Shown here in pieces: positions 12,372-46,668 of a stretch of DNA of 64,000 nt. The notes beneath the pieces were generated by a model. That model saw nothing but the letters and a program-made list of their open reading frames with translations. It ran no database searches and was not told the DNA's origin. Position 1 is the stretch's first letter. Each line of letters opens with the position of its first letter. The stretch is from Sipunculus nudus (Eukaryota > Annelida > Sipuncula > Golfingiida > Sipunculidae), in the NCBI GenBank assembly GCA_026874595.1, contig CM049311.1, forward strand, positions 67,336,453 to 67,400,452, given 5' to 3'. The translations under genes and the position numbers were made by a program.

Positions 12372-15300
12372 CTGTGGTAAACAATTGAAAATGTTTTTTA
12401 AAGAAATACAAAAAAACACAAAAGATCAGACGATACATGGTGAAAATGAGAGTATAAAGTACTCTGAAGTTACTGCCTCTCAGAAGACATACACCTGGCA
12501 TCCTAGCATTAAAATAGGAGTTTCAAGTATAAAATTAATTTCAAAGATAAATAAATATGAAGAAATGTAACCAGCTACATTCTACTTGTAGAAAAATTAT
12601 CCAAAATTAAATATATCCTTATTTGAATCATCTATTTCATGGTCATCCAATGACCATGTCAATCAATGTAAGCTGTATATATTTTACACATATATTTTAT
12701 CACTGTAAATGATGAGACAGTACTGTTATATGATTATTTCAGCACAACTTAATCTGTTCTATTCATTAACTATGCAAGTGATGAAGCTTCTCTTAACACA
12801 GTCAAGTGTATTCTTTTTTTATTTATTTCCATTTTGACACATCTTCACTGTTGTAATACTAGAGTGAACAGGGGTCTGTTGCAATAAGGAGATTTAAGTC
12901 ATGTTGATGACTTAAGTCCTGGGCTGTATGTAAGTCTCTTCAGTAACCGTTATAACGTCACAATTATTACAATGGTGTTTTGGGCCCTCTGTTGGGCTTA
13001 AGCCCGTTATAATGTTACTGCAACAGGTCCCTGCAGTTGCAGGGAACACAGTGAAACTAAGCCCCTTGTATGTACTGATATGCATGAACTGGCCAAGCAC
13101 CCATTAAAAATTTGGTTTGGAGTTAGGACATGATATAAAATACAGCAGAAAACTTTCTCCACTGGGCAAATCATAACGCAAACTTTTTTCCCTGATTGAG
13201 ACATTTTTTTTTTAATCCACAAGTTTTCCCGTCAAGAACAAGAGCACCCAAGGGTGCAAAATATGCCCATTGGATATGAACGGATCTTGCTGGGAATCAA
13301 TTTTGGCGAGATAATATATTGGTTAACATTTCAGCTGATTTTCACCTAAAGCCATCAAACTCCTTGTAAGTTATAATGCACTCTGCAACAACACAAATAA
13401 GTTTAGTGACGTTATACCTCATGATATTTGTGTGGATTTTGCCTAGAATCGAATATGGGCGAGAAAATCTTTTGGAAAGAAATTATGGTGAGTTTCATGA
13501 AAATCCATCAAAGCCCTGCCAGTTTATTGTGGTGATACTAAAGTTAACTGCCAGCACACTGATATACCATTAAACATCCCTTCTAACTAAGAAGGGAGTA
13601 TAAACAGGGAAACTTTTTCAAGGTTTGCCTGAGTTGAGAGTGGCTTTGTTCCCCAAGTGAGTCTTCTATACACAACTGAAATCAGATTTTATAAGCAAGA
13701 ATACTGTTGACAGAACTTTTGAAATTCAAAAGAAAGAACACTAAATAGCAAGAATTTTCAGTATCCATTACTCATTCAAAATTTTTCAATAAATTTTACG
13801 AACGTTTTAAGTATGCAAAAGTATTCTCTGACCACCCCTCTCATCCCTAAATTGCTCTGTTCTCAAGTTTTGTACACAGGTATTACTCACCTCCAAAAGA
13901 GGACCTTTTCCTGGGAAGGTGAGGACCTTATACAGTGCAACAGCAGGGATGGCTATGACGGATGACAGAGACATACCCCAGCCTAATGTGTCTGCCCACC
14001 ACGGGAAGTCTATTTTATTGTAGCTGGATGGTTTGAACTCCACCCAGATAAACACCATGATGAACTGAAAATAAAAATAACCACAGTTCAAAACCAATAA
14101 TGTGATTTTATTTGACATTAACTTCCTGGTTGTCCGTATAAAAAAAGTGTACGAGACAGTTCGGACCACTTTCATGGAGAACCAACTGTTAAAAAACAGC
14201 TGGTTTAATGATAGTCTTGTTATTAACAAAATCAATGTTGAAGTATTGAAAAATACGTAATTAAATATAATGATATACAGTGAAACCTCATTGTATCGAA
14301 GTCAACGGGACTGGTGAATTTACTTCAACACAACCAGAGTTCAAGACAACCGATGTTCATTATATTCACCTTCTTCAGAACAATTTTTATCGATAAATAC
14401 TGCACATGTATTGGGCTCATGTCATATAGCTCTCACAAATGTTTTCATGAAAGAATAACACAAATTTTATATAGTTTTTTTATTAATAATAAAAAAACAT
14501 AAAAAATAGGATTAGGTTAATCCAGAAAGTGAAATAAGAGCACATACATGTACGTGTTTAAAAGCACACAATTCAATAAATGATTGGCTCAGATCATTTT
14601 CAATTCAACATTATCCTAGACACATCAAAGGTAAGAATTGGGTAATGTTTGGTTTATCAATAACTTCTCTTAATGCTTTGTCGGCCAGAGAAGAAAGGCG
14701 TGTCCATGAGTGACTAATTGGCCAAACAAGTAAACCACAGACTTGGTATGTCAGCCATCGCGCTTGATGAGCAAGATCCTTGCCAGTATTAATTATGTAA
14801 CATCACGGCCATAGGTATGATTGTTGGACAGTGCACAACTGTTGTCCAAACATTAAAGCGGCATGACAATGAGTCGACAGAGCCATCGCGTTTGATGAGT
14901 GAGAGCCTGGATGGTATTAATTAATTATGACTGGTCATCACGGCCCAACATAATTGATGGGCCCTGCACAACTGTTATCCAATCATGACTTCGAGTTAAG
15001 CGATAGAAATATTAGCTGGGAACAAACAAAACACCTTGACACATCCGGTTTTTCAACACACCCGACTTTACACAAGTGGAGTTAAATTAATAAAGTTTTA
15101 ATTATTTTTTGCAGGGACCCAACCTTTGACTTTGACATATGCGGGTTTTCGACTTAACCGAGTTCAAAACAACAAGGTTTCACTGTATATGCTTTTCTTA
15201 TTCATGTTTACATTTGAGTCTGATATCAAACAAAAACCATGAAATTCCTAACAACAAGAAATGCTTTTAAACATATATCCATAAAATATTAAGTGAACAA

Positions 15301-18300
15301 CAGTTCATAAAAACAGTATTTTACACTGTGAGATAAAGATTTTAAAAGCTGCAGTTATCTATAAGGAGAATCAGAGACTATTTAGACTGACAATAGTTAC
15401 AAAGTGAATTACATATCCAAAATCAAAATATGAAATGGCTTCTATTGGTTCAAACAACACATAATATAATTACCAGTAACATAAGTGGACACAGGTATTT
15501 CCAAGTGATCAACCAGAACCATCCAATTGTGTAGTTGGTCATCTGTCTGATGTCTTTTCTCAGTCTGTCAAAACCTGGAAAAATATGACACCAGTTAACA
15601 CTTGTAAGGACCAGTCAGGACTAGTTAACCCATTATCTCATATGTGGTTATAATATGCCTTTCCCTTCAAGAGTCCATACAATTCTGTAGCTATTAATGT
15701 GTGACTGTTGATTATAATGCAGTACAGAAGAGAATTATAACACCATTCAGCATACTAAAATTTATCTAAATTTTCAAACAAAAGGGGCATAGCCTGGGGA
15801 GAGTCACGGGGGCAATGTTCCAATTAATGTATTATATTGATGATTGGTTGTTTTCTTTCATAACAGATTAAGCTGATTGCATTTTTGCATAACTGATCAC
15901 AAATGATTATGTATGCACATCCAAAGTCATACTATCCCAATAAATAGTTTTATTCTGTCAGAGATATAAGAAAGACAATACACAAAACTGGGAACAGCAT
16001 TAAAGTTAATCCTTGTGCAATGAATAAGTGTCAACAACCTGGCCATTACCATGACCTTTCAAAAAGCCTGATGTGCAAGTTAAGACTTAATTCATTCCGT
16101 CTATACTTTAATTATAATTCTATACACCATATTTCACGGTAATATAGATGTTACATAAAATAATAATAACTGATTACTGGTCTTTTTTATCTTTTAATCA
16201 TTGTATATGATTTTACAACCGATTCTTTCAACTAATTTATAAACCTTAAATAAATTATGTACAGGTGAGGCACAGGAATGACTAGAGTACTGACAGTAGT
16301 GATGATGGACTTATGATGGACGATGACAGTAATGTGGTCTTACCGTATATCCATGCCAGAGCCACAGACTCTGTCAGTGCGATAAACAAGACGGAGTATG
16401 TGGCAGCGTAGTTATCAAAGATCTGCAGCATGTACATTCCTCCCTGAAATCAGTAAATCGTTATAACCTGTGGTTGGCTTTGTAATTACAGTGTTTCGCA
16501 AGGGTTCAATTTTCGCTACCTCACAATACAATGGACCTATACACAGAGTAAAACTATTAATATTAAGTGAATTTATGAAATCAAATTTTATTTGCACTTA
16601 ATCTTATTAACAAAAAAATATGGTTTGTAAATGGTAAACGACAGGAAAGGCCCCATATCATTTTAAAATATTAATCTTTGAACATACACGATCTATTTTC
16701 ATTCATAATGTGATCCTTTTACTTTTCAAAATTGCCTTTCAATGATGGAACATCTTATTCTGAAAGGTTTAATTTCAGGGATAATTCCCCTTTCATGAAT
16801 ATCGTAAATTTGAAACCCTATTGAATAAAATGGTGACCATGTTATATTCTTCTTGTTCATTATAGTTAATTTAAGATGCAGGCTTCCTGGACTGTACATG
16901 AAGACATGCGCTACACTGATATAGTTCCAGTAATATGTGTATTATCTCAGACAACTCCAGGTAAGCCAGTACTTTCTCCTGCAATTCTAGGAGTGTTGCA
17001 AATTATTTAACTACATACTGATGATTGGTTTTCTTCATAACTTATTTGGTTTGCTGCACTTTCATGTGTTCAATTTGCATGCACATGGAAAAAAAAGTTA
17101 ATTTATTAAGAAAATTTCACTCTCTCAAAACTATAAAGAGGATGGACAGAAAATAAAAACCAGTGTTAAAACTAAAACCTTCAGCAGCAGACAAATGATT
17201 GAATCTTTGCAAGATTACCAACCAAATTTACTGCATTATGTAAGGTATACAGGTTATCACAGGTAGACATGTATTATGCGAGGTATACAGATTATCTCAG
17301 GAAGACATATATTATGTCAGGTGTACAGGTTATCCCAGGTAGACATGTTTTATGTCAGGTATACAGGTTATCTCAGGAAGACATATATTATGTCAGGTGT
17401 ACAGGTTATCTCAGGTAGACATGTCTTATGGCGGGTATACAGGTTATCTCAGGTGGACATGTATTATGTCAAGTATACAGGTTACTCAGGTAGACATGTC
17501 TAATTTCAGGTGTACAGGTTATCTCAGGAAGACATATATAATGAAAGGTATACAGGTTATCTCTGGTCGATGTCTTATTTCAGGTGTACAGGTTATCATA
17601 GGTAGACATGTCTTATGTCAGGTATACAGGTTATCTCAGGGGAACATGTATTATGTCAGGTATAGAGGTTATCTCAGGTAGCCATGTATAATGTAAGGTA
17701 CACAAGTTACCTCAGACCTGTATTGTGTAAAGTATACAGGTTATCTCAGGTAGACATGTCTTATGTCATGTATACAGTTAACATCACGTAGACTTACATT
17801 TGTACACAAAGACAGGCCCAGGATAAAGCTGATGAAACAAAGCGCCATCATCAGTAAGCTCGGGCGATAACCAGTACGGAACATGTTAGGAAAGCTATCC
17901 ATCAGTGTGGTATGGACAGTTGTCATGATCGCAAACTGAAATACAAAAATAACAATCTGTGAGGATCACCTGGTTGACATTGACAGGCCACAAAATGAAA
18001 CATAAAATGAGCTGGCGAGGTCTGTTGTTTACTCTCCCAGTATGGACAGTAATAAGATGGAAGAATAAGTATTCTTGATTGCAACAAGATGATTATACTA
18101 AGGAGCAGATAGTAGTGATGTCATCAATGTCAATATAAGAAATACACCTAACTGCTCATAACTATACATTGGTATGATACAGATTTTCATGAATATATCA
18201 CACCAGAACCAGGAAATAGACAGGTGGCATGGTTCTCTGGGCAGGAACACCAGGGTGCACACAGAGCACAAAATTGTAATCAGACCACTGAAAGCATGAC

Positions 18301-21300: not shown

Positions 21301-24300
21301 GATATTAGGCAGTCTTAAAGTGTAACATTGGGTTTTTAATGGAAAAATGAAGTTTTTCATTGATATCTCGAAGGAATTAAGTCCTAGTGACCAAATTCTT
21401 GGCATGAAAGGGGATTTTGGAGAAATCTAACTGTATGCCAAATTTAAGGAACTTAGAGCTGAAGCTCGGGAGCTGAGCTCTAGCAAACTGCATAACACTA
21501 GCAATATGTGACATGGTGCTTGAAAACTTGAATAAAATCTACAGTTTTTGATGAACTGGTTTCAAATTTTTGGTGTTAATAGTTGAAATGCTAACAAAAA
21601 CATGCTGTGAAAATTAAATCCACAGCAGTTACAGCAAAAAAACGTGCCATGGTCAAAGTTGGGCAAAATTTAAGGTACCAATTTTTTATTTTTGCTAATA
21701 TTTTTAAAAATTTAAAAGATTTTGATCTAATTTTGGGTATACAATTTAATTTTGATTAATAAAAGTAATATTACTGGAAAAAAAGTGCTTAGCTTTAACA
21801 AGTTTTGTGTTAAGTGATAAAATTTCTTTCCTGATTATTTAAAAAATGCATTATGTTTGGGCCCATAACTTTTTTAAATTAAATAATACAGACCTAATTT
21901 CTGGCATGTACATAGGAATTATATAGAGGATTATTTATAGGAAATATGAGGAAAAACAGATGAGTGGTTTTGACAGTAGGCAGTCCTAAAGTGTGAAAAT
22001 AGGTTTTTAATAAAAAATTAGGGTTTTTCCTTAATTTCTCAAAGGAATGAAGTCGCAAAGACCCAGTTTTTGGCTTGGTAGGAGATCTTGGGGACATCTA
22101 ACATTATGCTGAATTTTGGATTCCTAGGTCTTACGGTTTCAAAACGTGCCACATCTACGGACGGACGGACGGACAGACGGACGGACGACGGACAATGGAC
22201 CACGACTATAGCTCAGATGACTTATAGTCAGCTGAGCTAAAAATCAATATAAAATATTTGTATCAGAAACTGATGACTATGTAACCTTCATTTAAATGGC
22301 ACAACAGTAATTAGTGTTGTAACAATGCCTCAATGAATCAATATACTGAATTGCAAGCCCTGAATTAAATTGTAATTGATCATTAACCTCTAAATTGATT
22401 CATTTTGATTATTATATTTTTTGCATTTACAATCCCAAAGTCCTTGGTTACCTCTCAAATCTGAAATAGTAGTTCACGGTGATGAAGTTCTTTACCATGT
22501 ATATACCCTTAATCTACTTTAAATGTTCCCTGGTGGACCATTCCACTTGCATAGAAATATATGGCAGTGATAAACAGAGAGACAGCTACATTTTTTCTTT
22601 AATTTACAGAAATTCACCGCCATCAATTTTGTTAAAACTGCTTTTATTTTATAAAAGGTCTGAAATTTACTACTTCAGTAAGAATTTAATTGAGATTTAA
22701 ATCTTAGGTGAATAATTGATAATTTAATAGATTTTAAAGGCCCTCAAAATTCACACGCCTAAAAGTAACTTCAATAATAATAATTATTTTTAAAAAATAT
22801 TACTGCATATAATTTCTGTATATAAACTAATGATAATGAATATACTGAGATTATTATTATTATTATTATTATTATTATAAGAAGAAAAAGAAAGCATAAG
22901 ATAACAAATATCATGAATCAGGAGAAGATATGAGATCACACATTACTTCACCAAAAAAAATAATAATTTCTGCAGTGATCTGAATGACTTAATGATAATA
23001 CATATACTGAAGATGATTATCATAAAAAAAAATATCAATGACATGCAGTGTCTAGTTTTTTAACTTTTCAAGCATTTTTTAAACGTTTTACATACCTGTG
23101 TCCCAAGGCCCAAAGTGATCAACATGAGGAAGAACAAGATAGCCCAGAGCGGGGAGGCAGGCAGGCGAGTTACCACCTCAGGGTATACAATAAACGCCAG
23201 GCCAGGACCTGAAAACATACAAATAGTTCCCATTGACACTTCTCCTACCAACAGTAGTTTTAGAGGTTTCAAATATCTTTTGCTTTGTTTTTATAATATT
23301 TTATCTTTTCTAGGTATTTTTTTAAATACTTATACTAACATTCACAATCCATTCTACCGTAGGAGGATACACAAAGGAATCACCCGGTCTGAACGTCTAC
23401 CTCATGTAATGTTTCACTGATTGAACAACAGATGGCTCTGATATGCAAAAGTGGTATTACCATAAATAATGATGAAGACTTATTTTGAATATCTCAACAT
23501 TAAGTACTCGTAGATGGGAGGTGATTACAGCCATATGGACAAACATCAAATCTTCCATACCTTCCCCCACCACTGCTTCGACTGGCTGTTTCAGCTCTGC
23601 TGCCATGTATCCGATGATTGCGAATATAACAAAACCAGCGAATACTGAGGTGATACAATCCCCAATACACACAATGTAGGTATCTCTGTAACAGAGAGAG
23701 AGAGTGTGCTATATCAGAAGTTTTAGACAATTATTATATAAGTAAAGTCTGAAGAAACCAAGGCATTAAATTCTTGGTAGCCTGGGGAAGGATAACAAAT
23801 GATATATTATTAGACAAAAAAAACAATAAAGGCAATAAATGCCAAGCCTCCTACTTTAATATATTCTTGAATAATATTGCTTCACCAAAGTAAACCTTTT
23901 ATTGAACAGATAAATACTTCTTAAAATATGTAAATGTTCAAAAATTGTGTAAAAACAGGTCATATTTCCCAATGTACTGTAATCATATGAGCTTTTTCAG
24001 GTCCAAGAGTGTCTGTTTAGTTCCTTAGCTGTATCTTATTATAAGTGTGTGATTATAAAATAAATATTTACACATGTATACATATGAAAAGGAAGTTGAC
24101 ACATATCATTTAAAATAATCCTTAAATCACTAAAAAATCTGTTATGAGAAATAATCAGAAAAAAAATTCTACAAATCATCATAAAATCATATAAACAGTG
24201 CCACAAATAATACATATAAAAGGTAATTTAAGCAAAGCTATTAGTGTCTAATTAGTGTCTAAGCAATAAACGGTTATAAAATTAAAAACCAATTCAGGTA

Positions 24301-27300
24301 AGGAATTTATGTAGTCTGCACCAAAGGTGATCAAATTAGGCGTTTGCTTTGAAATCATAAATGTTATAAGGAATACAAAAAATGTCTAAGGTTTAAAATA
24401 CACACACCACGTACCTAAGGCAGTTATTGGTAAATTTATTGTAGCTGGCGAGAGTAATAAGACCTCCCCAGCCTGGACACAGAGAGAAAAAGATTTGCAC
24501 AGTAGCATCTCCCCAAACCTGTATCAAATAAGGCAATGAAACAGATGTGTAAGACAACCCGGGAAATTAGAAATGGTAAAATAGGCAGTCAGTGTGCTAC
24601 CTGATAAAAACGGTAAAATATCCAGTAGAATAACAAGATCACATAAAGCCCGCAGCAACATGTGATGGAACTTTTAATGGTCATTGTCAAAGGATTTTAC
24701 AGTATTTTGTCCATGAAGAAATTCTCAAACTTTTATTCATCTGCATGGTTACTAAAAGGAAGTACCATACAAGTTACCTGGCCTCTTATTTATCCAGTAG
24801 GAATTTTTTATTTTCAAAATTTAAGCTTTTAATTTTAAATGCACTTCAGCACCTGGTAAATAATCAAATAGCCAAATTATTTTCATCAGTAATGGCATGC
24901 CAGAGCTTCTGTCTTAGCCAAAACTTCATAATTGAAAGTGCGTTTTAGCTTTTTTTCAAAATATTAAAGAAAAGGCAAAGTTACCTATTTACAACCAAAA
25001 AAAAATCATTTAAATAATATAATTTTACACTTGTATTGAAGTAACAAATGTATAATAACATGCTGAATTCAGCAAATTGGTCAAGTATGATGAAAAAATA
25101 ATTGAATACTTTAAATAACTGATGTTAAAGGATGTGTCCACTCTTTGACAAAAAAATAGAAATAAAGAAAGACAAAAAAATCATCAGACACATGCCGCTA
25201 GTCACTGAGAGAATAAACAATGGAAATATGGATGTCAAACAAATTCCACAAGTCAAAGTATCTATGATTGTGCTTAATTTTGTATATATCTGTTTGTTTC
25301 ATTTCAGAAAGCCATGCAGAAGATGCAAGGTATAATGAACACAATACCTTATATCCTCTGATAATGACCACTAAAATTATCACAGACAAAACAGAATGCT
25401 TGACAAAAAATAAAACACATGGTAAAACTTACCTTCAGAGACCTCAAAATACAGAGAAACCCCTCCTTATATACACCTCCATATTAAGGACACCGCTTTC
25501 TTACAGACACTTGAAATGGTCTCATGAAATAATACTATGAGAACTTCTTTGATATGGGCACTATTCCATGTGTGAAACAGGTCAAACCAGTGTCCATAAT
25601 TTGGAGGTTCTGATTGCATGCTTCTTAGTAAAACAGGACATGATCTACATTACATGTCATATATTTCTATTTATCTTACTTACCTTGAATTTATGCTGTT
25701 CTGCTACTGGATTATATGCCAATTTTCTACATATTCCCAGTGTTATGTTCTTAGAAAAGGACAACTTTCAATCACAAACTGTTTTCACTCTTGAATCATT
25801 TTTTTGCAAAAATGAAATTATTTCTGGTTTGAAAAATAAATTCAAATGTTCAAGCATTTCAAATTAGTCAATAGGAGAAATATGTTATTGAGACAGAAAA
25901 ACAATAATACAGATTAGTCAAAATTACAACAGAAAATCCATAAAGGCTGAAGTGGGAGAATTAGGAGACAGAATGTAAACCAATTTAAACCTGAAACCTA
26001 TTTCCTGCAGTTGAGCAAACAGCAAAAGACTGAACTGATTCTACTTCACTACCTGAACATGCAAAACCGCCACTTACATTTTCTGCATAATTATATTTTG
26101 CCAAATTTGTGTCAAGTCAGCTTTCTGTAGTTACATCTTGCCCTTACCAGAGATAAACATTTCTTGTGTAAAAGCTTCAAATGCACAGGGCACTTTGTTA
26201 ATCTCAAGTTGTCATTTAAGGGAACTTTCCATTTCCCAAACAGAAGACAAAACACATCTGTAAAATAATAGGTTTTTATAGAGGGAATAAATCAGTCCTT
26301 TTGTATTCTATTTGTATTATTCTACTGTTGTACTGCCTCAATACCGAGGATTTAAACAGGAACATTTATTAGCAACAAAGACGGCCACCAATACAGCCAG
26401 GGGATAAATCAAATCGAGTCTCTATCAACATGGAATCTGTACAGAGCTTCTAAAGTGGGCAATTCATATCCTTGGATGATATGGCATGACTGTCCAAGGA
26501 AACACTAAACTATGCCTGTCAGGACCAATATTTACACAACCAGCACCTGGCCATTAGGTCCACTTCTTTTATGCTCGTAATAATTGCAATTTATAATCCA
26601 TTTGATCTTAATGTCATTTATCAACAAAAAACCAGGGGCCTGAATAATATGGTGATACCACTGGATTACAACTGCGTATACTGATGACATTCTATGACCA
26701 GTCTAATCAGTGTCATACACAGAAGTCCGGCAGGTCCAAAACTCCAACTAAACGGAGAGCATGGCTCAGTACACCTGAAGTGAGCAGAATGATTTTCCTT
26801 TAATTTTGTGACTTAAATGAATCACAAAACTCCATGGGTTCCTTGGAACTGAGATGCCAACACTGAAATTTCAAGAACTTGAAATTTAAATATTAATATT
26901 GAAATTCTGAAAGTTTCCAGGTTTTCAAAGATTCATGGATATTTGGTTTTTAAAGTTTTCATCAGATTTACACTGTGTTTAGCATCTGTGAACTTGCTAT
27001 CTTGTGCCCCTAACTTTGGAATGATGGATATTGGTCTGGCAATGTCTGTTTGTGTGTATGTAACATATCCAGATAGTAATTTTCCAAATATTATCTGATT
27101 TAGTTTAAATTTTGTGCAATTGTTTCCTTTTGTTAATATATGGATGGGATTACCTTATGACCATCTGTGATCCAAAATCCTCATTCCATTGGTTTCCAGG
27201 TGGTAGCTTGCCTATATTTATCAGATTCCATTCAAATTAATTAAAATTTCTTCTTCCAGATTACTGATTATCTGTTTTTCCTTCATAGGTATTCTGCATT

Positions 27301-30300
27301 ATACTGGTTCATGTATTATACTTAAAGGGACCCAAGCTGGGGATCCAAGATTCCATGAATTCACTTTAACTTTTAAGTTTGGGCATCATGAAAATCTAAA
27401 TATCAAAGTTTATGCCAATATCGTAATAATTTCTCAGCAAAACTTAACTGCAGAAAATGCAAGCTGGTATTAAAATACTAAGACATGCATACAGACTTAC
27501 CTGAGGCAGTTGTTGTGGAATTTATTGTAGGAGGAAAGGGTGATAAGTCCACCCCAGCCCGGGGCCAGAGAGAAGAAAATCTGTACCGCAGCGTCACCCC
27601 ACACCTACAGAACAACACGGCGTGTGCCGAAGCTATGGTCAACAACACATATACTAGCAATCAAACAGCTGGCTGGCCGGACAATTTCTGTTACTTATTT
27701 TTATCGCTGGACAGATTCTAATCCCCCAGTCCTTATGATTACTATATGATTAGATTACTATAATTTTTTAAATAATAATACAATATTTTTTCATTTTTTT
27801 GTTAATTCTCACCTAGAGCAAGGAGGTTACCAAAGACAATAGAAACTCTCATCAACTGCCATTGGCACGAAGACAAACATCAACAGATTTCTTGAAAAGG
27901 TATGAGCCAATATTTTCTCACAGACTTAACATTTACCACTGATGATCGTTTTGGACAATCTAAACCTGCAGTACTAAATGATGACTAATCTTAAGGTACG
28001 AAATGACTGATTATGGCAGGTCTCTGAAGGCAACAAACTGTTTATTTTTTACAACAGCCAGCTGTCTGCATGTGATCTATGAGAGAAATTAGGTCATTTT
28101 ACACCAGGAAGGCAGTACTTAAAACAAAACCACAGAAAACGATGCCGCGAGCTTGGCAATCACGGTGAACGTAGAATATGATGCTGTGAGCGTGGATGAG
28201 TGACAGGTGATATAAGAATGCTGTAGTCTATTTCCATAAGACTGGTGATACACATAACACATATATAATTAAACAACATCCACAAATTTATTTTCTTATA
28301 TATATATCTATGCCATGGCATAAAATAAATTAAAAGATATATCAGCAATTAAACAAGGTTAAAAAGCATATGATCTTTCATCTGCAACCATTCAAGGGCC
28401 ACCAATCCGGATTTTTTTTCTTCAAAATTATCTTTGCCAAACACACACTACATTTACAGATATATAGAAAAATAGTTAAACAAAATAATTACATAAATTA
28501 TATAACAAAACCATTGAACAATTTCTTGGGTTTTTTCTACATAAATTATTATATAGTCACGATCTATTCTAGGACTGCAGCCACATGATTTTCCCATCTG
28601 GATTGATGTTTCAATCTCCCAATCAACCTCTTAGTAAATTTGTAATTAACATTTTAAATACTACATTTAACAGGTATACCGATGAGATATCCTCAGAACC
28701 ATTCTTTCAATTCTATCACATACACATAATCATCTCATGTATTTAAGTAACATTTTCGACTTTTAATGAACATTAATGCTCATCACAGATGGAAACTAAA
28801 TGTTTTGATTTTAAGACATAAACTTGAAAATTAACTGCAGAATGTTATGAGAAATACCTTGGCTGTGGCAAGCTTTTCCCATTTAGGAGTCAAGTAATAC
28901 AGGACTCCATCCAGGGAACCTGGGAGCGTCAGACCCCTGACCATCAAAATCAGGAGAACCAGGTACGGAAACGTGGCGGTGAAGTATACAGCCTGCAAAT
29001 AAAAAAAAAAAACAGCTTTAAAGAATTAATCAACATAACAGGAACAGATATACAGCAGGAACTGCAGGTCTTAAATATAGTACAGTGAAACAAACTTTTG
29101 TTTGTGTCTTGATTATGATGAAAATTCCTATTGCTGAACTCTTAACGAAAATTTTCCAGTCATGGAGTTGATTATCAAAAATAATCACAAATGAACCCTT
29201 GTATCAAAATCAGGTTTTGTGGAGGTATTTTTTTAGACTCCTTGATTTTAACCCCATACATCAAAACCTTCCATGTGGAGATTCATAAAATTTTTTCTTT
29301 TGTGATAAAAAAATTTGTATTTAATGAAAAATAATCTAATGCTAATAATGAAAGAACATTTCTCTCAATACTGAGCCCGAATATTATTATCATCAAACAA
29401 TGTAAATTTTCTGTCATGCGACATTCAGTATATTCAATCCTTTATTGAATATTCACCAAAGGTTTCCATGCATTGTGAACCTTTCTGGAGGATTTAATGC
29501 CAAGAATCATGTGCAGTTGAACCTGTCTAATGCGACCACCCAAGGGACTGGGCAAAGTGGTCGTAATAGACAGGAGGTCGTATTTGACAGGTTCTGAACA
29601 TTTAGGAACTGCACAAATCTAGCTGACTTGTATGACGGAAATATACATATTAGACCATCTTTATGACTTTAATTAAAAAAAATATTTGCAGAAGGGAACA
29701 ATCTTGGTGTTACATGAATTTTGTTACTGCACACAAATGTACATGTACTTAACTGTGTAATTTGATGTAATGCACTGAATAGTTCAAAGACAGAACACAG
29801 AGGCACAGATCAAAGACTGACTTTGGGGAACCTCCATTCATCTGGATTAATAGGTCATGTGAGCCAGTCACGTTGCCCGCCAGAGGCTCCAGGCCCAGGG
29901 TCCCAATAATAACCAGTCTGTGCTCCATACACGCCCACACCAGTAACACAAACAGAGAGCGGTATAAGTGATCACAACTTCACGCATGGTCAATCAACCG
30001 ACCGGTCAGCGCTGGTCAGTGAGTAGCACAAAGAGAACTCGCATTAGGCAGTTCAATTAATTAGTAATATGTCACTTTGGTCAGGAAAAACTGCCCGTAA
30101 TCCGTAATAGCCAGTTGGTCGTATTTCACAGGTTTTATCTATCGATAATATAACAGAATATTAAAAGGGACTGATATCTAATGGTCGTAATAACCAGGTG
30201 CCCGCATTTCACAGGTGGTCGTACAGACAGGTTGGACTGTATTGTAAACTGTGCACTAACCCTCCAGGAAGATTTGATGCCATGGATCATGTATTGTGAA

Positions 30301-31472
30301 CAGTGCATGTACCTTCAAAGCGGATTTAATGCCACAGATCATGTATTGTGACTGTGCACTCACCTTCACAGAGAATTTAATGCCATGGATCATGTCTTGT
30401 GAACTGGGCACTCACCTTCCCAGAGGATTTAATGCCATGGATCATGTATTGTGAACTGTGCTCTCACCTTCCTGGAGGATTTAATGCCACAGATCATGTA
30501 TTGTGAACTGTGCTCTCACCTTCCCGGAGGATTTAATGCCACAGATCATGTATTGTGAACTGTGCACTCACCTTCCCGGAAGATTTAATTCCACAGATCA
30601 TGTATTGTGAACTATGCACTAACCTTCCCAGAGGATTTAATGCCACTGTTCATGTATTGTGAACTGTGCTCTCACCTTCCTTGAGGATTTAATGCCATAG
30701 ATCATGTATTGTGAACTGTGCACTCACCTTCCAAGGGGATTTAATGCCACCGTTCATGTATTGTGAACTGTGCACTAACCTTCGGGGAAGATTTGATGAT
30801 ATGGATCATGTATTGTGAACTGTGCACTAACCTTCCCAGAGGATTTAATGCCATGGATCATGTATTGTGAACCATGCACTCACCTTCCCGGAGGATTTAA
30901 TGCCACGGATCATGTATTGTTAACTTTTCACTCACCTTCCCGGAGGATTTAATGCCACGGATCATGTATTGTTAACATTGCACTCACCTTCCCGGAGGAT
31001 TTAATGCCACGGATCATGCAGATGCAGACCAAAGTCCAAGCGAGGAGAAGACAAAGTGCCAACTGCCACCGCACTGGGCCCAAGTCATGGATACCCTCTG
31101 AGATGTTCAGCACATATCGACTAAAATTATAAAACATTTTTACAGAATGAATGAAAATAACAAACCAAAAAGAATATTATATGACATCAAAAGATATGAT
31201 GAGCTGAGATAAGATGAGATAAGAGGTGGATTGGATAAGATCTATGAGATGGGATAGGTCACATGGGAGAAGATAAAATGAAATGAGAAAGGATGGAATT
31301 AGATGAGAGAAGATAAGATGAGATGATATGGGATATGATATAAGATATAAGATGGGATAAACAGGATTATAAGACATGAGATGAGATCATATGAGATGAA
31401 ATACAAAATATTTAAGCAATTCTTCTATGGATTCTATTCTTCAGAATAAACCCATATATGGCCAAATATATA

Positions 31473-31547
<75 letters not shown>

Positions 31548-34500
31548 ATATAATGCATTGTTAATAAATCAATGGAATGGAATATAAAAGACAAAATACA
31601 TAAGGCTCATTTTTGGGTGTTATTTAGTGAATTGTTCAAAAGATCAAGTTTAAAATGTTTGTGGCAGAAATATCTAATGAATCTAAACATAAAGGTGTGA
31701 TTAATCTGATCCACTCAAAACAGCATTAAAAGGGTTACTGGTGAGTGACAAATGATATACAATGATTCTTAATTATAACTTGACAGAATGATCACATGAC
31801 CTACTGGAAGTACTCATCACTGGGGCTGACTCTCTTGGCAGCAGTCTCATTAACTAAGGCTGTCAGGTTTGCTGATGGGGATGTCAGATTGCCTATGTAG
31901 CCGTAGGTACTGTTGTCAGCTGAGCAGTCAGTGTAATTAGACAGGGAACAGTTCACAGTGCCGTTCTCAACTCCTCTCACCTTACAAGCTGTCAGGAATA
32001 TATATAAGACTTATGATCTAAAGATGGTTAATTTGGGATTCTGATAACAAACATCACCTATTACCAGTAATGCAAGATTTGTATTCATGTGACATCTATT
32101 ATATATAGTTGGTATGGCTTTAAACATGTAAACTTAAACATGTTTTTCAATATGTTTTATAGGACACCTCTAAGGCTTTTATATGGGAATGAAGTTAATT
32201 TTACTTTAAGAATGATCATATCATAAAGCTTTCTGAATTTAAATTTTTCTAAGCACAGGTTTATAAATAATTCTGACATAGGTATAGGTGCATTACATGG
32301 GGTTGAACTTCAGAGGGCTAATACAACAAGTGAACCCACATGCATATGCAGAAAAATATGGGTTCAGTGCTTGTGCAAAATGAATCCACTTTTGGTACTT
32401 TATCTCAATTATGTTGTGTAACACTTCCAGAAGAATAAGTCATGAAGTAACGCTTATATTTTACTGCAAATTTTTTTTTACTTATAAAATACTATTATAT
32501 ATTGATATTAATTATACAGGTATAAAGTAAAAGCGTATTAGGTGTTGATGCTGTTGAACCTACATTTATTTGTAAAAAAATGTGAATTAATTCACGTTCT
32601 AGCTGATCTATATATGTTTATGATGTATCAAACCTACATTTAGGTAAACATGTATCTGCCAGTGACGCTGAATATACATATCACGTCAAGAAAAAAAGGG
32701 TAAAGAATAAGATAATTTTTCTATATAATTTTCACAAATGATAATTTATATATAATTTAAGGTAAGGTGTAGTAGAAGCCTATTAGGCACTGAACCCACA
32801 TTTTTTAACAAGGGACCCATGGGTCACATCGCTCAGCTGAATTTTGGAAAATATTAGTAACTGCAAAATATTTTTATTTCTTATGGTTTTTCATGTATAT
32901 TACCATTTGAAAAGTTAAGAGAAAATGGCCCAGCTAAAACGAAACTCTGTTAATTATAGAATAATGGACATGAGCTAAAGCATATGGAATGTGTAATAAA
33001 TGAAACCTTTGGCCTGAAACCATTTAGTGATGCACCAAAGGAAAATATCGGTCTACAGAAACTTCAAAGTGTCATATATAAGTTCCATTTCATAAACAAA
33101 TAATGTGTGAAGGTAATAAAGTTTTCAAAAGTTAAATATATGGCCATATGAGTTAAAAATTAATCCCACAAAGTTTGACCAATATTCGTAATTTTAAAAC
33201 TACATTCAACAGTGTTATTCACACCTAGGCCCTGCCAACTTTAAGAGATATGAATGAAATGCTACCAAGTATTTATATCTTCTTACATCTTGTCAGTTAG
33301 CACTTACATTATGTCCTAATATTTTATCACATTTGAATATTAGGATTAAATTCCTGATCATTTTTTTCTTTACAAAAATCAAAATTGTCCAAGTCTCAAT
33401 AAAAAGAATTTATTTAAAATTTAAATTATAAGATTTGTCTTGTTTATTAGTCCTGTGTATTGAAGGGATGGGTGGGGGAGGGGTCTCTGTTGTTACTGCT
33501 CGTCGCTGAAAAAATGTGAAATTATAAGATTAGTCTTATTTATAGTACAGGTCTGTCAACAGAATGGGGGGGGGGGGGGGGAAGAAAGGCTCCCTGTGGT
33601 ATTAACTGCAAGCAGCCTAATCAAGCTCAACAAGAGAGAGGGCTTGCCCAAGTGATGGCATTGCATAATAAGAGCCTGGGGAGCATAGAGAGTTGCACTG
33701 AATGACCTACAGTGACCAAAGTGGACTGCTGGACAATGTAAGGGAATACAACAAGAGCCTCAAAAAAAATTCAATAACTAGCCTGATTTTGCAGCATTTA
33801 TTTTCAAATTTCAGATTTAAACAGATTAAATCCTTATGTGTACATGCTGTGAAAATTAAATCCACAGTACTTACAGTTTATTTCACTTTCAAGGGAATAA
33901 TGTATTTAAGTTTATATATAAGCCTATTTTTTTTAACATATCCACTTTTTCCATTAATAGGTTTTATCTCATTCATTTTTTTTATTTACAAGTTTTATAA
34001 ATTTATAATAAAAAAAACTGAAAATATAAGTTAAAATATTACAATTCTAAGTTGCAATCATTATATACCCAGAGTGTAGCTCCTACTGGGTCATATTATG
34101 CATACACATATGTTTTATTATTTTTAAATCACAAATGTTTAAACTGAATTTAAAAGAAAATAATGCCACAACATGGCATCTACAATATTATTCCTTGAAT
34201 CACTGTTAAAAAGTTTTGCACATTGGAGTTTTCAGTACATGCTTAATTTTATTCACCGAAATTTAATAAAAGATTCAGTAAATTTGATAAAATAAGTCAA
34301 TTTCACACCTGGTGAAGTTTTTACTCTTCTGAAGTAAGATATTACTTATCTGATGAACATCCGCACTTTCGTAGCCATACACCACTTTGCGGACACAATT
34401 AAATGTTCACTTATACAAAATCTAAAATGTAGCATAGCCAATAATAAAATAAAATACAGAAAATTATAACATTCATCTAGTTAATGCACCAATGGGGGGG

Positions 34501-46500: not shown

Positions 46501-46668
46501 ACACACCAATTATTAACTACATACCATCAGTATTCCAGGGGTTATTGCAGCCAGCCCAAGGTAAGTGTGAGGTGAACGAGGCAAACAGGTAGAAGAAGGT
46601 CCAGGCAATGATGACATTGTAGTATATACTGACCAGGAAGGACACTGTGAACATGCCCCAGCCTATAC
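12240..46668 (-). CDS. SLC6: SLC6 family Na+-coupled transporter, glycine-transporter-like, 3' part of gene (12 coding exons plus one alternative)
   Basis: Joining the exons listed separately gives an open frame of about 526 residues, numbered here from the first complete codon at 46,666. It runs from TM3 to the stop codon. Seen: the TM6 motif [14 protein letters not shown], [14 protein letters not shown] in EL4, GLGTQF in TM8, and DWGPAL in the C-tail. All introns are GT-AG with compatible phases (1,2,0,0,2,1,0,0,1,0,0 in order). Family knowledge: SLC6 proteins have 12 TM helices and co-transport amino acids or neurotransmitters with Na+ and usually Cl- at the plasma membrane. The GLGTQ motif and the LLxRLK...DWGPAL tail resemble GlyT1 rather than monoamine or GABA carriers. 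Substrate is not proven: glycine or another small amino acid is likely. TM1-TM2 and the start codon are not in the window, so the gene is partial. No frameshift or stop interrupts it. Confidence 0.95.
12372..13890 (-). other. last SLC6 intron
   Basis: Intron between the TM12 exon and the C-tail exon, phase 0. Apart from the repeat fragment from 13,236 it shows nothing recognisable. Confidence 0.85.
13236..13575 (-). repeat. fragment of another hairpin-ended repeat family
   Basis: On the minus strand the end reads GCACCCTTGGGTGC followed by TCTTGTTC. This hairpin plus CTTGTT terminus resembles the R1 3' end. The other end was not identified. Confidence 0.45.
13891..14064 (-). CDS. SLC6 exon: EL6 and TM12
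   Basis: Exon of 174 bp (58 codons, phase 0), residues 426-483. It begins [20 protein letters not shown] (end of TM11 and EL6), then [20 protein letters not shown] and [18 protein letters not shown]. The family pattern is YP.W...LGW.....S...IP. PLLE leads into the cytoplasmic tail; GlyT1 has a closely similar TLLQRLK. Acceptor is attttcag and donor gtgagt. Confidence 0.95.
14278..15185. mobile_element. non-autonomous TIR element, TA target duplication
   Basis: Ends CAGTGAAACCT...AGGTTTCACTG, flanked by TA at 14,276-14,277 and 15,186-15,187, length 908 bp. It lies in the intron between the TM11 and TM12 exons. The interior has two imperfect direct copies of about 140 bp (catcgcg.ttgatgag...catcacggcc...gcacaactgtt). 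The TIR and TA duplication suggest the Tc1/mariner-pogo group. No transposase is encoded. Confidence 0.75.
15474..15574 (-). CDS. SLC6 exon: IL5 and TM11
   Basis: Exon of 101 bp, phase 1 to phase 0, residues 392-425. It reads [20 protein letters not shown] then [14 protein letters not shown]. The pattern YG...(F/D)R...DI..M.G......W...W....P is the standard SLC6 loop between TM10 and TM11. Acceptor is catatttttccag and donor gtaatt. Confidence 0.95.
16344..16443 (-). CDS. SLC6 exon: TM10
   Basis: Exon of 100 bp, phase 0 to phase 1, residues 359-392. It reads [20 protein letters not shown] then [14 protein letters not shown]. The GG(I/M)Y..Q..D.YAA..S motif and the TM10 Glu (E383, SERT Glu493/494 region) are diagnostic of the family. 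The exon ends at the cytoplasmic YG(F)DR motif, completed by the next exon. Acceptor is cgatttactgatttcag and donor gtaaga. Confidence 0.96.
16444..17231 (-). other. intron sequence without recognised features
   Basis: Part of the intron between the TM9 and TM10 exons, before the 38-bp array. Nothing recognised. Confidence 0.6.
17232..17792. repeat. 38-bp minisatellite abutting a splice donor, about 15 copies
   Basis: Plus-strand unit is close to aggtatacaggttatctc + aggtagacatgtattatgtc. The last, diverged copy runs to within about six bases of the TM8-TM9 exon donor at 17,797. The open plus-strand frames over it are repeat artefacts. Confidence 0.9.
17798..17935 (-). CDS. SLC6 exon: end of TM8 and TM9
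   Basis: Exon of 138 bp (46 codons, phase 0), residues 313-358. It reads [20 protein letters not shown] then [23 protein letters not shown] and CTN. TM9 is about residues 337-355. The Glu normally found in this TM8 segment (LETL in GlyT1, VEGF in GAT, LEGV in SERT) is replaced by Thr317. The residues A314-I315-M316 read the same as the LeuT stretch AIM. Donor is gtaagt. A 38-bp minisatellite starts about six bases into the following intron. Confidence 0.94.
17936..19629 (-). other. intron sequence without recognised features
   Basis: Between the TM8-TM9 exon and R1 copy A. A short inverted duplication is visible: gttctctgggcaggaacacc (18,233) against ggtgttcctgcccagagaac (18,440), with more matching text on the inner sides, so the two arms could form a stem. 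Confidence 0.5.
19630..22243 (-). mobile_element. R1 Helentron-like element, copy A
   Basis: Minus-strand 5' end is TTTTTAGCTCAGCTGACT and the 3' end is CAGCTGAGC..., then the palindrome GACC(C/T)ATGGGTC-type hairpin and CCTTGTT. It contains a GGAC-rich microsatellite near the 5' end (22,158-22,190) and two ~680-bp direct copies of a segment that includes gtttgggcccataactt. No long open frame. Confidence 0.75.
22244..23095 (-). other. intron sequence with a TTA microsatellite
   Basis: AT-rich intron between the two TM8 exons. A (TTA)n run lies at 22,851-22,879. Otherwise nothing seen. Confidence 0.6.
23096..23208 (-). CDS. SLC6 exon: EL4 and first half of TM8
   Basis: Exon of 113 bp, phase 1 to phase 0, residues 275-312. 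It encodes [17 protein letters not shown], the strongly conserved EL4 helix-turn-helix, then [21 protein letters not shown]. In TM8, G310 stands where SERT and GAT have the Na2-site Asp (SERT Asp437). GlyT1 also has Gly (GLGTQF), which is one reason for the GlyT1-like label. T311 aligns with SERT Ser438. Acceptor is gtatgttttcag and donor gtatgt. Confidence 0.96.
23561..23685 (-). CDS. SLC6 exon: TM7
   Basis: Exon of 125 bp, phase 2 to phase 1, residues 233-275. It reads [20 protein letters not shown] then [12 protein letters not shown] and the EL4 start [11 protein letters not shown]. It aligns without gaps to SERT (QDALVTSVVNCMTS...). Ser246 matches SERT Ser372, part of the chloride site. 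Where most Cl--dependent members have Asn (SERT Asn368, LeuT Asn286) this protein has Asp242. Insect nutrient amino acid transporters also carry Asp there, from memory. This may reduce or change chloride dependence. Acceptor is ctctgttacag and donor gtatgg. Confidence 0.95.
24415..24518 (-). CDS. SLC6 alternative TM6 exon, version b (pocket Cys212)
   Basis: Second TM6 exon, 3 kb downstream of version a, with the same length (104 bp) and phases (0 to 2). It reads [34 protein letters not shown]. By direct comparison, 26 of 104 bases and 21 codons differ from version a, yet only four residues change: A204T, A212C, S222A and H228T. Silent changes dominate, which argues that both copies are under protein-level selection rather than one being a relic. 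Acceptor is ttgatacag and donor gtacgt, both intact. Ser210, Gln206 and the GWGGL bend are preserved. Both versions join the next exon as AG|A, giving Arg233. Confidence 0.95.
24519..27500 (-). other. intron between the two alternative TM6 exons
   Basis: About 3 kb. I looked for a third TM6 copy (FFSL.PGWGG or SYNKF on the minus strand) and saw none. No mobile element ends recognised. Confidence 0.6.
27501..27604 (-). CDS. SLC6 alternative TM6 exon, version a (pocket Ala212)
   Basis: First of two 104-bp exons for TM6, phase 0 to phase 2, residues 199-233. It reads [35 protein letters not shown]206 and S210 align with SERT Gln332 and Ser336 (chloride site), F209 with SERT Phe335 and LeuT Phe253, and W215 with LeuT Phe259. 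Ala212 is at the LeuT Ser256 / GlyT1 Gly305 / GlyT2 Ser481 position, which is known to set glycine versus sarcosine acceptance in the glycine transporters. Acceptor is gttctgtag and donor gtaagt. Since 104 is not a multiple of three, skipping both copies or joining both shifts the frame, so one copy per mRNA is required. Confidence 0.95.
27605..28857 (-). other. intron upstream of alternative exon a
   Basis: AT-rich, no recognised repeats or coding sequence. Confidence 0.5.
28858..28992 (-). CDS. SLC6 exon: TM5 and EL3
   Basis: Exon of 135 bp (45 codons, phase 0 to 0), residues 154-198. [20 protein letters not shown] is a standard SLC6 TM5, where the usual family text is [20 protein letters not shown]. 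It is followed by [21 protein letters not shown], the EL3 region before TM6. Acceptor is tatttgcag and donor gtattt. It splices in phase 0 to either of the two alternative TM6 exons, each of which starts with GTG/GTT TGG to give AK-VWGD. Confidence 0.96.
29471..29512 (-). repeat. isolated copy of the 52-bp splice-donor repeat
   Basis: Reads ttgtgaacctttctggagga then tttaatgccaagaatcatg, a diverged unit of the 30.2-31.0 kb array. It is cut off from the array by the TIR element that follows. Confidence 0.75.
29514..30239. mobile_element. non-autonomous TIR element inserted in the 52-bp array
   Basis: Left end CAGTTGAACCTGTCT..GCGACCACC, right end GGTGGTCGTA.AGACAGGTTGGACTG, imperfect inverted repeats. 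The interior contains further copies of ggtcgta(at)...caggt. Both flanks are parts of one 52-bp unit. About 726 bp, no transposase. Confidence 0.65.
30253..30987 (-). repeat. 52-bp minisatellite made of an exon end plus its splice donor, about 14 copies
   Basis: Each unit repeats the end of the TM4 exon (CATGATCCGTGGCATTAAAT...AAG) with its donor (gtgagtg) and about 20 intronic bases. Copies start at roughly 52-base steps from 30,253 to 30,928; the authentic exon end is the next step. Nine copies keep AAG|GTGAG, and most others read AAG|GTTAG. See findings. Confidence 0.95.
30988..31120 (-). CDS. SLC6 exon: end of EL2 and TM4
   Basis: Exon of 133 bp, phase 2 to phase 0, residues 109-153. It carries [10 protein letters not shown] then [17 protein letters not shown], a very typical SLC6 TM4 start, and ends in the cytoplasmic IRGIKSSGK that family members share (VKSTGK-like). 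N114 gives another possible sequon. The authentic donor is AAG|gtgagtg. The last ~30 coding bases and this donor are the seed of a 52-bp tandem array that fills the following intron. Reading through the donor gives a stop after 12 codons, inside the first array copy. Confidence 0.96.
31180..31410. repeat. degenerate GATRA pentanucleotide tract
   Basis: Mixed agatgagataagatgag-type units on the plus strand in the intron between the EL2 and TM4 exons. Confidence 0.8.
31475..31544. repeat. (AT)n microsatellite, about 35 units
   Basis: Uninterrupted alternating AT. The open frame reading IYIYIY on the minus strand is not a gene. Confidence 0.97.
31805..31988 (-). CDS. SLC6 exon: large extracellular loop 2
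   Basis: Exon of 184 bp, phase 1 to phase 2, residues 48-109. It is separated from the TM3 exon by a 14.5 kb intron full of transposons. It encodes almost all of EL2, the loop that is long and glycosylated in neurotransmitter transporters. C49 pairs with C40. Seven N-glycosylation sequons can be read: N56, N60, N65, N73, N81, N88 and N94. C61 and C69 are extra cysteines that may form a second loop disulphide. The exon ends with SPSDEYF, matching the family pattern xxEFFxxxVL that leads into TM4. Acceptor is cctgacag and donor gtaggt. The loop sequence itself is not conserved enough to name a subtype. Confidence 0.93.
31989..32806 (-). other. intron sequence, nothing recognised
   Basis: Start of the 14.5 kb intron between the EL2 and TM3 exons. 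Confidence 0.5.
32807..36535 (-). mobile_element. R1 Helentron-like element, copy D, interrupted
   Basis: 3' end hairpin at aacaagggacccatgggtca (32,807) and 5' end agtcagctgagctaaaaacc (36,535). It has lower similarity to copies A-C, two poly-G tracts (about 33,566 and 34,494), and a 1.2 kb insertion near its 5' end. Confidence 0.75.
35323..36514. mobile_element. TIR element nested in R1 copy D, TA duplication
   Basis: Perfect ends CCGTAAAATCTGTGAAATTT and its reverse complement, flanked by TA on both sides (35,321-35,322 and 36,515-36,516). Removing the element and one TA restores gatgacttatagtcagctg, as in R1 copies A-C. The interior has two imperfect direct repeats of about 330 bp. Length 1,192 bp, no transposase. 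Confidence 0.88.
36536..37645. other. intron sequence with a poly-G tract
   Basis: G run at 36,844-36,862. No coding sequence or element ends identified. Confidence 0.5.
37646..39980. mobile_element. Harbinger-like TIR element, TAA duplication
   Basis: Ends GGCCATCCTTAAAAA(g/t)TTCT with the matching inverse at 39,946-39,980, about 34 of 35 bases inverted, flanked by TAA at 37,643-37,645 and 39,981-39,983. Three-base TWA duplications are typical of PIF/Harbinger. The interior is a patchwork with no recognisable transposase, including two imperfect copies of ggtcaNccatc.t.gaacttgaccNagattttgtt (about 39,058 and 39,226). Confidence 0.7.
39551..39730 (-). repeat. R5 repeat copy inside the Harbinger-like element
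   Basis: Shares acaggcctaatgcgaacctg and following text with 60,419-60,570. On the minus strand the end can fold as AGGCCTGTAGGCCT followed by TGTT (clearer at 60,419), another hairpin-type 3' end. Confidence 0.5.
40246..43498 (-). mobile_element. R2 Helentron-like element, copy 2, interrupted by R1 copy E
   Basis: Same ends as copy 1: CTAG terminus and GTAGTCG hairpin at 40,246, and ttttggcggatac at 43,497. It has four internal ~300-bp units. R1 copy E sits inside one unit. Confidence 0.78.
40554..42650 (+). mobile_element. R1 Helentron-like element, copy E, nested in R2 copy 2
   Basis: Plus orientation: starts tttttagctcagctgactat and ends cagctgagcgccgtgaccca then tgggtcccttgtt. Flanks join to the R2 unit phrase gccaccatttttgtgtatg, with no obvious target duplication. 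Confidence 0.78.
43499..44135. other. intron sequence with an imperfect direct repeat
   Basis: Two related blocks near 43,590 and 43,725 share aatcaaagc..gcagaggac...ttcacaccta...cctgca.t.aggtgc. Function unknown. Confidence 0.4.
44136..45657 (-). mobile_element. R3 Helentron-like element with eight ~180-bp tandem units
   Basis: Minus-strand 5' end TATGCCCCCGCC and, near the 3' end, GGCGGGGGCATTC followed by hairpin GTGTCG-TTC-CGACAC and ATCTAG (44,136). Units repeat gtaggtcaaccgggac...ctgtaactggtc...caccaaaaatcaggcc at about 44,240, 44,420, 44,600, 44,762, 44,941, 45,121, 45,301 and 45,481. Confidence 0.8.
45658..46524 (-). other. intron sequence after the TM3 exon
   Basis: No repeats or coding sequence recognised. 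Confidence 0.5.
46525..46668 (-). CDS. SLC6 exon: TM3 and start of EL2
   Basis: First exon of the gene visible in the window, 144 bp, acceptor phase 1 and donor phase 1. It encodes residues 1-47 plus the first base of codon 48. TM3 is about residues 4-28 and contains [10 protein letters not shown]. The second Tyr (Y16) aligns with SERT Tyr176 and LeuT Tyr108, which touch the substrate. C40 starts the conserved EL2 disulphide (C-x8-C, completed by C49 in the next exon) in the [12 protein letters not shown] motif typical of SLC6. The acceptor (ttatttccag) is good and the donor is gtatgt. The bases at the acceptor are tandemly duplicated into the upstream intron (see the repeat at 46,650-46,860). 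Confidence 0.95.

Follow-up and report, generated by a model that had tools for sequence, protein, structure and literature searches.

Transporters of the SLC6 family are the classic case in which single pocket residues set the choice of substrate. Carriers of other families exchange whole exons: SLC12A1 (NKCC2) is listed in a set of genes with mutually exclusive exons (PMC9741552), and such exons are also described for SLC25A3 and SLC39A14 (PMC5740500). The locus considered here lies in the genome of Sipunculus nudus, a sipunculan and not a mollusc, as a preliminary description of the same DNA had implied, within a stretch of 64,000 nucleotides (C6:67336453-67400452; below, the window). It contains a predicted glycine-transporter-like SLC6 gene with two copies, A and B, of the exon for transmembrane helix 6 (TM6). 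Taken as a whole explanation, a mutually exclusive pair of TM6 exons that swaps a residue of the substrate pocket is probable.

The likeness to the exon 4 variants of NKCC2 lies in the use of mutually exclusive exons by a carrier. NKCC2, however, belongs to another family, its variants change the affinity for ions, and both function and expression are reported, whereas in S. nudus the exchanged segment bears a predicted amino-acid site. Likewise, SLC25A3 and SLC39A14 are solute carriers with mutually exclusive exons, but their families are unrelated to SLC6 and their exons do not lie at the SLC6 substrate site. No SLC6 gene with mutually exclusive exons was found in a limited search of open-access full text, and to that extent the literature agrees with the earlier statement that no described SLC6 gene is known to use a TM6 splice switch. 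On the best reading, the pair is a known kind of event to which S. nudus adds an SLC6 instance. If true, amino-acid symporters would join NKCC2, SLC25A3 and SLC39A14 among the carriers with mutually exclusive exons, and the exchange of a pocket helix by splicing would let nature compare two pocket states while the remainder of the protein stays the same.

The two copies are located between a single TM5 exon and a single TM7 exon:

28858..28992, minus strand: TM5 exon, 135 bp, the upstream partner common to A and B, ends in phase 0
27501..27604, minus strand: TM6 exon A, 104 bp, AG/exon/GTAAGT, Ala at the switch site
24415..24518, minus strand: TM6 exon B, 104 bp, AG/exon/GTACGT, Cys at the switch site
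23561..23685, minus strand: TM7 exon, 125 bp, the downstream partner common to A and B, starts in phase 2

Each copy begins in phase 0 and ends in phase 2, and the borders are TGTAG/GTG...CTCAG/GTAAGT for exon A and TACAG/GTT...CTTAG/GTACGT for exon B. The two 104-bp exons with equal phases and intact borders are thus present where they had been placed, and the junction positions 28858 and 23685 quoted for their partners are correct. Spliced models from TM1 to TM12 are open over 609 codons with exon A only and over 609 codons with exon B only. The claim that including both or neither breaks the frame also holds in these models, with a stop at codon 425 when both are joined and at codon 376 when both are skipped. 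In a protein search of the same genome with exon B as the query, the TM6 matches lie far beyond chance (E 4.3e-19 and 1.2e-15 for B and A, respectively). As reported before, four residues differ, out of 34 whole codons: positions 6 (A/T), 14 (A/C), 24 (S/A) and 30 (H/T); the split 35th codon encodes Arg in both exons. A third TM6 copy was seen neither in the window nor in the N-terminal stretch. Judged by the DNA, the pair has the length, phase, splice sites and frame behaviour of mutually exclusive homologous exons.

Between the two copies there are 26 base differences in 104 positions, and 18 of these fall on third codon positions. By the NG86 method the proportion of synonymous differences (pS) is 0.77, that is, saturated, and that of nonsynonymous differences (pN) is 0.10. 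Since silent sites are saturated and only four residues have changed, both copies have apparently been kept as protein for long; when one copy was left unconstrained for 13 changes in 20,000 simulated runs, four or fewer residue changes arose at P 0.002. Thus exons A and B both appear to be under long-term protein constraint. Because they share phase and length, and the protein has been kept while silent sites became saturated, splicing of the two as alternatives is most likely, a reading that we hold with some assurance.

The gene model runs from the TM1 exon to the TM12 exon on the minus strand and is N-terminally incomplete. It has 13 coding positions plus the second TM6 copy, with AG/GT borders at 14 of 14, and the TM1 and TM2 exons lie 3.7-4.5 kb past the window end. 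The SNF domain (Pfam PF00209) spans the 12-helix core of the isoform B model with 687 bits over profile positions 3-522 of 524, which places the gene in SLC6; no NCBIfam family matched. The TM1 exon contains SYAVGLGNVWRFPY, which fits GNVWRFP, the TM1 signature of SLC6. Among solved structures, the top whole-length match of isoform A is human GlyT2 (SLC6A5; 625 bits), followed by chains named only 'Transporter' (614), GlyT1 (SLC6A9; 579), a proline transporter (564) and the next at 543 bits; GlyT2 and GlyT1 are therefore the nearest named solved relatives. Hence the gene is best described as a glycine-transporter-like SLC6 gene, nearest to GlyT1 and GlyT2 among solved members, with glycine as a candidate substrate.

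The TM6 exon aligns without gaps with TM6 of GlyT1 and GlyT2. Exon position 14, the switch site, pairs with Gly of human GlyT1 (SLGCAWGG) and Ser of GlyT2 (SLSAAWGG), and the Trp three residues past it is common to both transporters and the S. nudus gene. In the GlyT1 chain this is position 319, which corresponds to residue 305 in the usual numbering; the site is known as LeuT Ser256, GlyT1 Gly305 and GlyT2 Ser481. Of the equivalence proposed earlier, the GlyT1 Gly and GlyT2 Ser parts are thus borne out by the alignment. The Ala/Cys change itself is found, at residue 338 of the incomplete model and not at residue 212, a number obtained because only the exons within the window had been counted (198.7 codons before TM6).

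The role of this site has been described in relatives. In SIT1 (SLC6A20), Gly253 lies packed against the ring of the substrate. Almost all other amino-acid carriers of the family have Ser at that site, and three structures show this Ser hydrogen-bonded to the primary amine; the G253S substitution raises the relative transport of Leu and Ala (PMC11217458). The action of a ligand on GlyT1 and not on GlyT2 is credited in the Concise Guide to a single TM6 Gly, which is Ser in GlyT2 (PMC6844579). SIT1 Gly253, which sets the preference between secondary and primary amines, corresponds to the switch site as judged from its distances to Phe250, Ser251 and Phe256 and not from an alignment; the residue is fixed in SIT1, for which these passages describe no exon switch, whereas in S. 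nudus the alternatives would lie on separate exons. The preliminary description held that this site decides whether N-methylated glycine is accepted. A role in the choice of amine type stands by the accounts of SIT1 and of GlyT1 versus GlyT2, and the ligand of the latter account is presumably sarcosine. No literature on GlyT2 S481G was found in the open-access text searched, and passages of PMC5809530 contained nothing on GlyT. Strombine and alanopine were considered as substrates and dropped; in the passages of PMC12202636 consulted, S. nudus is mentioned only in a reference.

Several observations weigh against a change of substrate by the exon swap. Neither exon has the Gly or Ser found in GlyT1 and GlyT2: the S. 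nudus pair is Ala/Cys, which differs from the reported Gly/Ser pair, and the passages above compared no Ala with Cys. Among 45 other TM6 exons of the genome the switch site is 17 times Ser, 16 times Gly, seven times Ala and once each Leu, Cys, Asn, Val and Ile, and it ranks as the ninth most variable of the 34 positions. With four pocket sites chosen by LeuT numbering, four random changes touch any of them with P 0.41, and the switch site alone with P 0.12. A true exon pair whose four changes tune turnover, ion coupling, trafficking or the site of expression, and not the choice of substrate, is thus a serious alternative, somewhat short of probable. It is favored by the variability of the site in paralogs, by the fact that three of the four changes fall outside the listed pocket sites and by a pocket match expected by chance at 41%. 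It is less easily reconciled with the amine-type effect reported at this very site in the passages on SIT1 and GlyT1/GlyT2, and with the fact that neither A nor B has kept the Ser or Gly seen in seven GlyT-like paralogs chosen for comparison (four Ser, three Gly). Two further paralogs with the same Trp, L027 and L035, have Asn and Ile at the site.

An altered choice of substrate by the exon swap is accordingly rated as possible. In SLC6 relatives, Gly at this site allows secondary amines and Ser favors primary ones; by analogy of side chains we would weakly guess that the products, differing at one pocket residue, are a more permissive A form (Ala) and a B form (Cys) more selective for primary amines. 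The most far-reaching suggestion is a tentative one: this would be the first SLC6 substrate subsite switched by splicing, the Ala form admitting N-substituted or bulkier small amino acids, the Cys form favoring glycine-like primary amines, with the tissue or the physiological state deciding which form is made in this burrowing worm, which tolerates anoxia.

A second alternative holds one of the copies to be a relic that splicing no longer includes or that died recently. Position-specific matrices place the donor of exon A (CAG/GTAAGT) at the 100th percentile and that of exon B at the 36th (55 training donors), and the acceptors at the 22nd and 12th percentiles, respectively (49 training acceptors), so that B has both the weaker donor and the weaker acceptor. 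The simulation of neutral change also leaves some room, with P 0.04 for 10 changes and P 0.18 for eight; because up to about eight neutral changes fit the data, one copy may have been lost recently. Nevertheless, the residues are conserved against saturated silent sites, there is no stop, all four splice sites are intact, and long-term neutrality is improbable by the 13-change result given above. We consider a relic copy unlikely.

For the preferred reading, a pair of exons used as alternatives, the following scheme is proposed. The TM5 exon would be joined to A or B and then to TM7, and only transcripts with one copy would encode a full transporter; transcripts with both copies or none would shift the frame and reach a stop. 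Since both wrong joins shift the frame, they are likely targets of decay, and would be cleared by nonsense-mediated decay. By its donor A would be the stronger exon and B the more regulated one, with RNA-binding factors acting on the weak acceptors. That the second copy exists chiefly to turn splicing to unproductive forms, with double-exon and no-exon decay targets setting the dosage, is very improbable: both wrong joins do stop several exons before the last modelled exon, but a poison exon would not require protein conservation, and A and B have been kept as protein.

Known mechanisms of exclusivity were considered in turn. Steric exclusion by too short an intron is ruled out because the A-B intron is 2,982 nt long (the intron after B is 729 nt). 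A mix of U2 and U12 sites was rejected, as the donors GTATTT, GTAAGT and GTACGT all look ordinary by eye against the U12 consensus. For docking and selector RNA sequences no significant pairing was found: the longest perfect duplexes between the introns were 13, 11 and 11 bp (P 0.18, 0.53 and 0.81 in 500 shuffles). The 13-bp duplex joins the first and the middle intron, and the top scored duplex of the same two introns reaches 37.5 against a mean of 32.0 and a maximum of 38.0 in 40 shuffles, which is suggestive of a docking pairing at most. Two short candidate motifs, from the eight motif classes looked for, lie close to the donors:

27484..27489, minus strand: TGCATG, first letter at intron base 12, downstream of exon A
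24401..24406, minus strand: TGTGTG, first letter at intron base 9, downstream of exon B

TGCATG, an RBFOX-type motif, occurs three times in the 2,982-nt intron and in neither of the two flanking introns, and TGTGTG, a CELF-type UG repeat, is the sole copy in the 729-nt intron.

The copies appear to be old. Their 150-bp flanks are no more alike than shuffled sequences, and the DNA identity of A and B (78/104) is about that of A and its paralogs (82/104 with L005, 81/104 with L001, 80/104 with L004 and 74/104 with both L002 and L003). By protein, A and B are each other's nearest relatives (30/34 identical), and in both TM6 trees they lie near GlyT-like paralogs. A tandem duplication is presumed as the simplest origin. 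In the trees A and B are sisters neither by protein nor by DNA, the protein tree pairing A with L003 (support 0.31) and the DNA tree placing A with L005, L002, L001 and L029 before B (support 0.17 to 0.75), so one exon copy may derive from another SLC6 gene. However, the nodes are weak, and 34 codons resolve little. A retrocopy that would reveal the exon used was not seen, the next best TM5 match being 73% identical.

Searches of 1,426,538,692 bases of the genome gave at least 47 matches to TM5, 62 to TM6 (53 with exon B as the query) and 53 to TM7, all lower bounds; the TM5-TM7 introns were scanned fully in seven paralogs (L001-L007). Arranged by position, the matches form 41 clean TM5-TM6-TM7 sets besides incomplete ones, and in four further runs TM6 is matched more than once. 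No second gene with two whole TM6 exons was seen among the matches listed, although a diverged copy could escape, and among these matches the C6 locus is the only gene that we read as having paired whole TM6 exons. In the C17 run, the two extra matches are 13-codon minisatellite fragments. The C9 run 66181980/66157141 was read as two genes: the first match and its TM5 lie in a single 103-codon frame, and the second (L038) is assigned to a separate gene because it lies 25 kb on, without an acceptor before TM6. In the C9 run 66096261/66055708 (L032 and L018), the matches are 40 kb apart and neither has an acceptor; they were also read as two genes. Among 47 TM6 exons, including A and B, an AG is found at the same acceptor position in 41 and a GT at the same donor position in all 47; thus the pair doubles the ordinary TM6 exon of the family. 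The 45 exons used for the residue counts are what remained of 60 TM6 matches besides A and B after omission of two minisatellite fragments, eight matches on unplaced contigs, three C16 copies, C9:66181980 and the truncated L045.

Further SLC6 genes form clusters on C16, at 59.75-60.10 Mb and 35.24-35.35 Mb. Five copies lie at 59.88-60.01 Mb, four of them with an identical TM5 match score, and L024, the only member of these four to be read, has Cys at the TM6 switch site. SLC6-like reading frames of 169-505 amino acids are also present on the small unplaced contigs C61, C62, C72, C82, C83, C89, C102, C122, C131 and C133; these are probably DNA of a bacterial cobiont or contaminant.

The remaining exons of the gene within the window are as follows:

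46525..46668, minus strand: TM3 exon, 144 bp
31805..31988, minus strand: extracellular loop 2 exon, 184 bp
30988..31120, minus strand: TM4 exon, 133 bp, with the first unit of a minisatellite as its donor end
23096..23208, minus strand: TM8 exon, 113 bp
17798..17935, minus strand: TM9 exon, 138 bp
16344..16443, minus strand: TM10 exon, 100 bp
15474..15574, minus strand: TM11 exon, 101 bp
13891..14064, minus strand: TM12 exon, 174 bp

The TM8 and TM9 exons (23096-23208 and 17798-17935) encode LGLGTQFAIMTT, as against LGLDTMFATIET in human GlyT2. The Asp and Glu of the human TM8-TM9 stretch LGLDTMFATIETIVTS are absent from both S. nudus isoforms, which may change sodium coupling.

Exon-border minisatellites were observed in two SLC6 paralogs; the first has grown out of a donor site, the second out of an acceptor site. 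In the gene described here, window positions 30238-31018 contain about 15 copies of a 52-bp minisatellite unit, which consists of the end of the TM4 exon and the first intron bases, including the GTGAGT donor; the array thus forms a row of donor-like copies that begins at the true donor. In the C17 paralog L001, a 70-bp minisatellite of 14 copies (3125-4102) has a unit composed of the intron end with its AG acceptor and approximately the first 13 codons of the TM6 exon.

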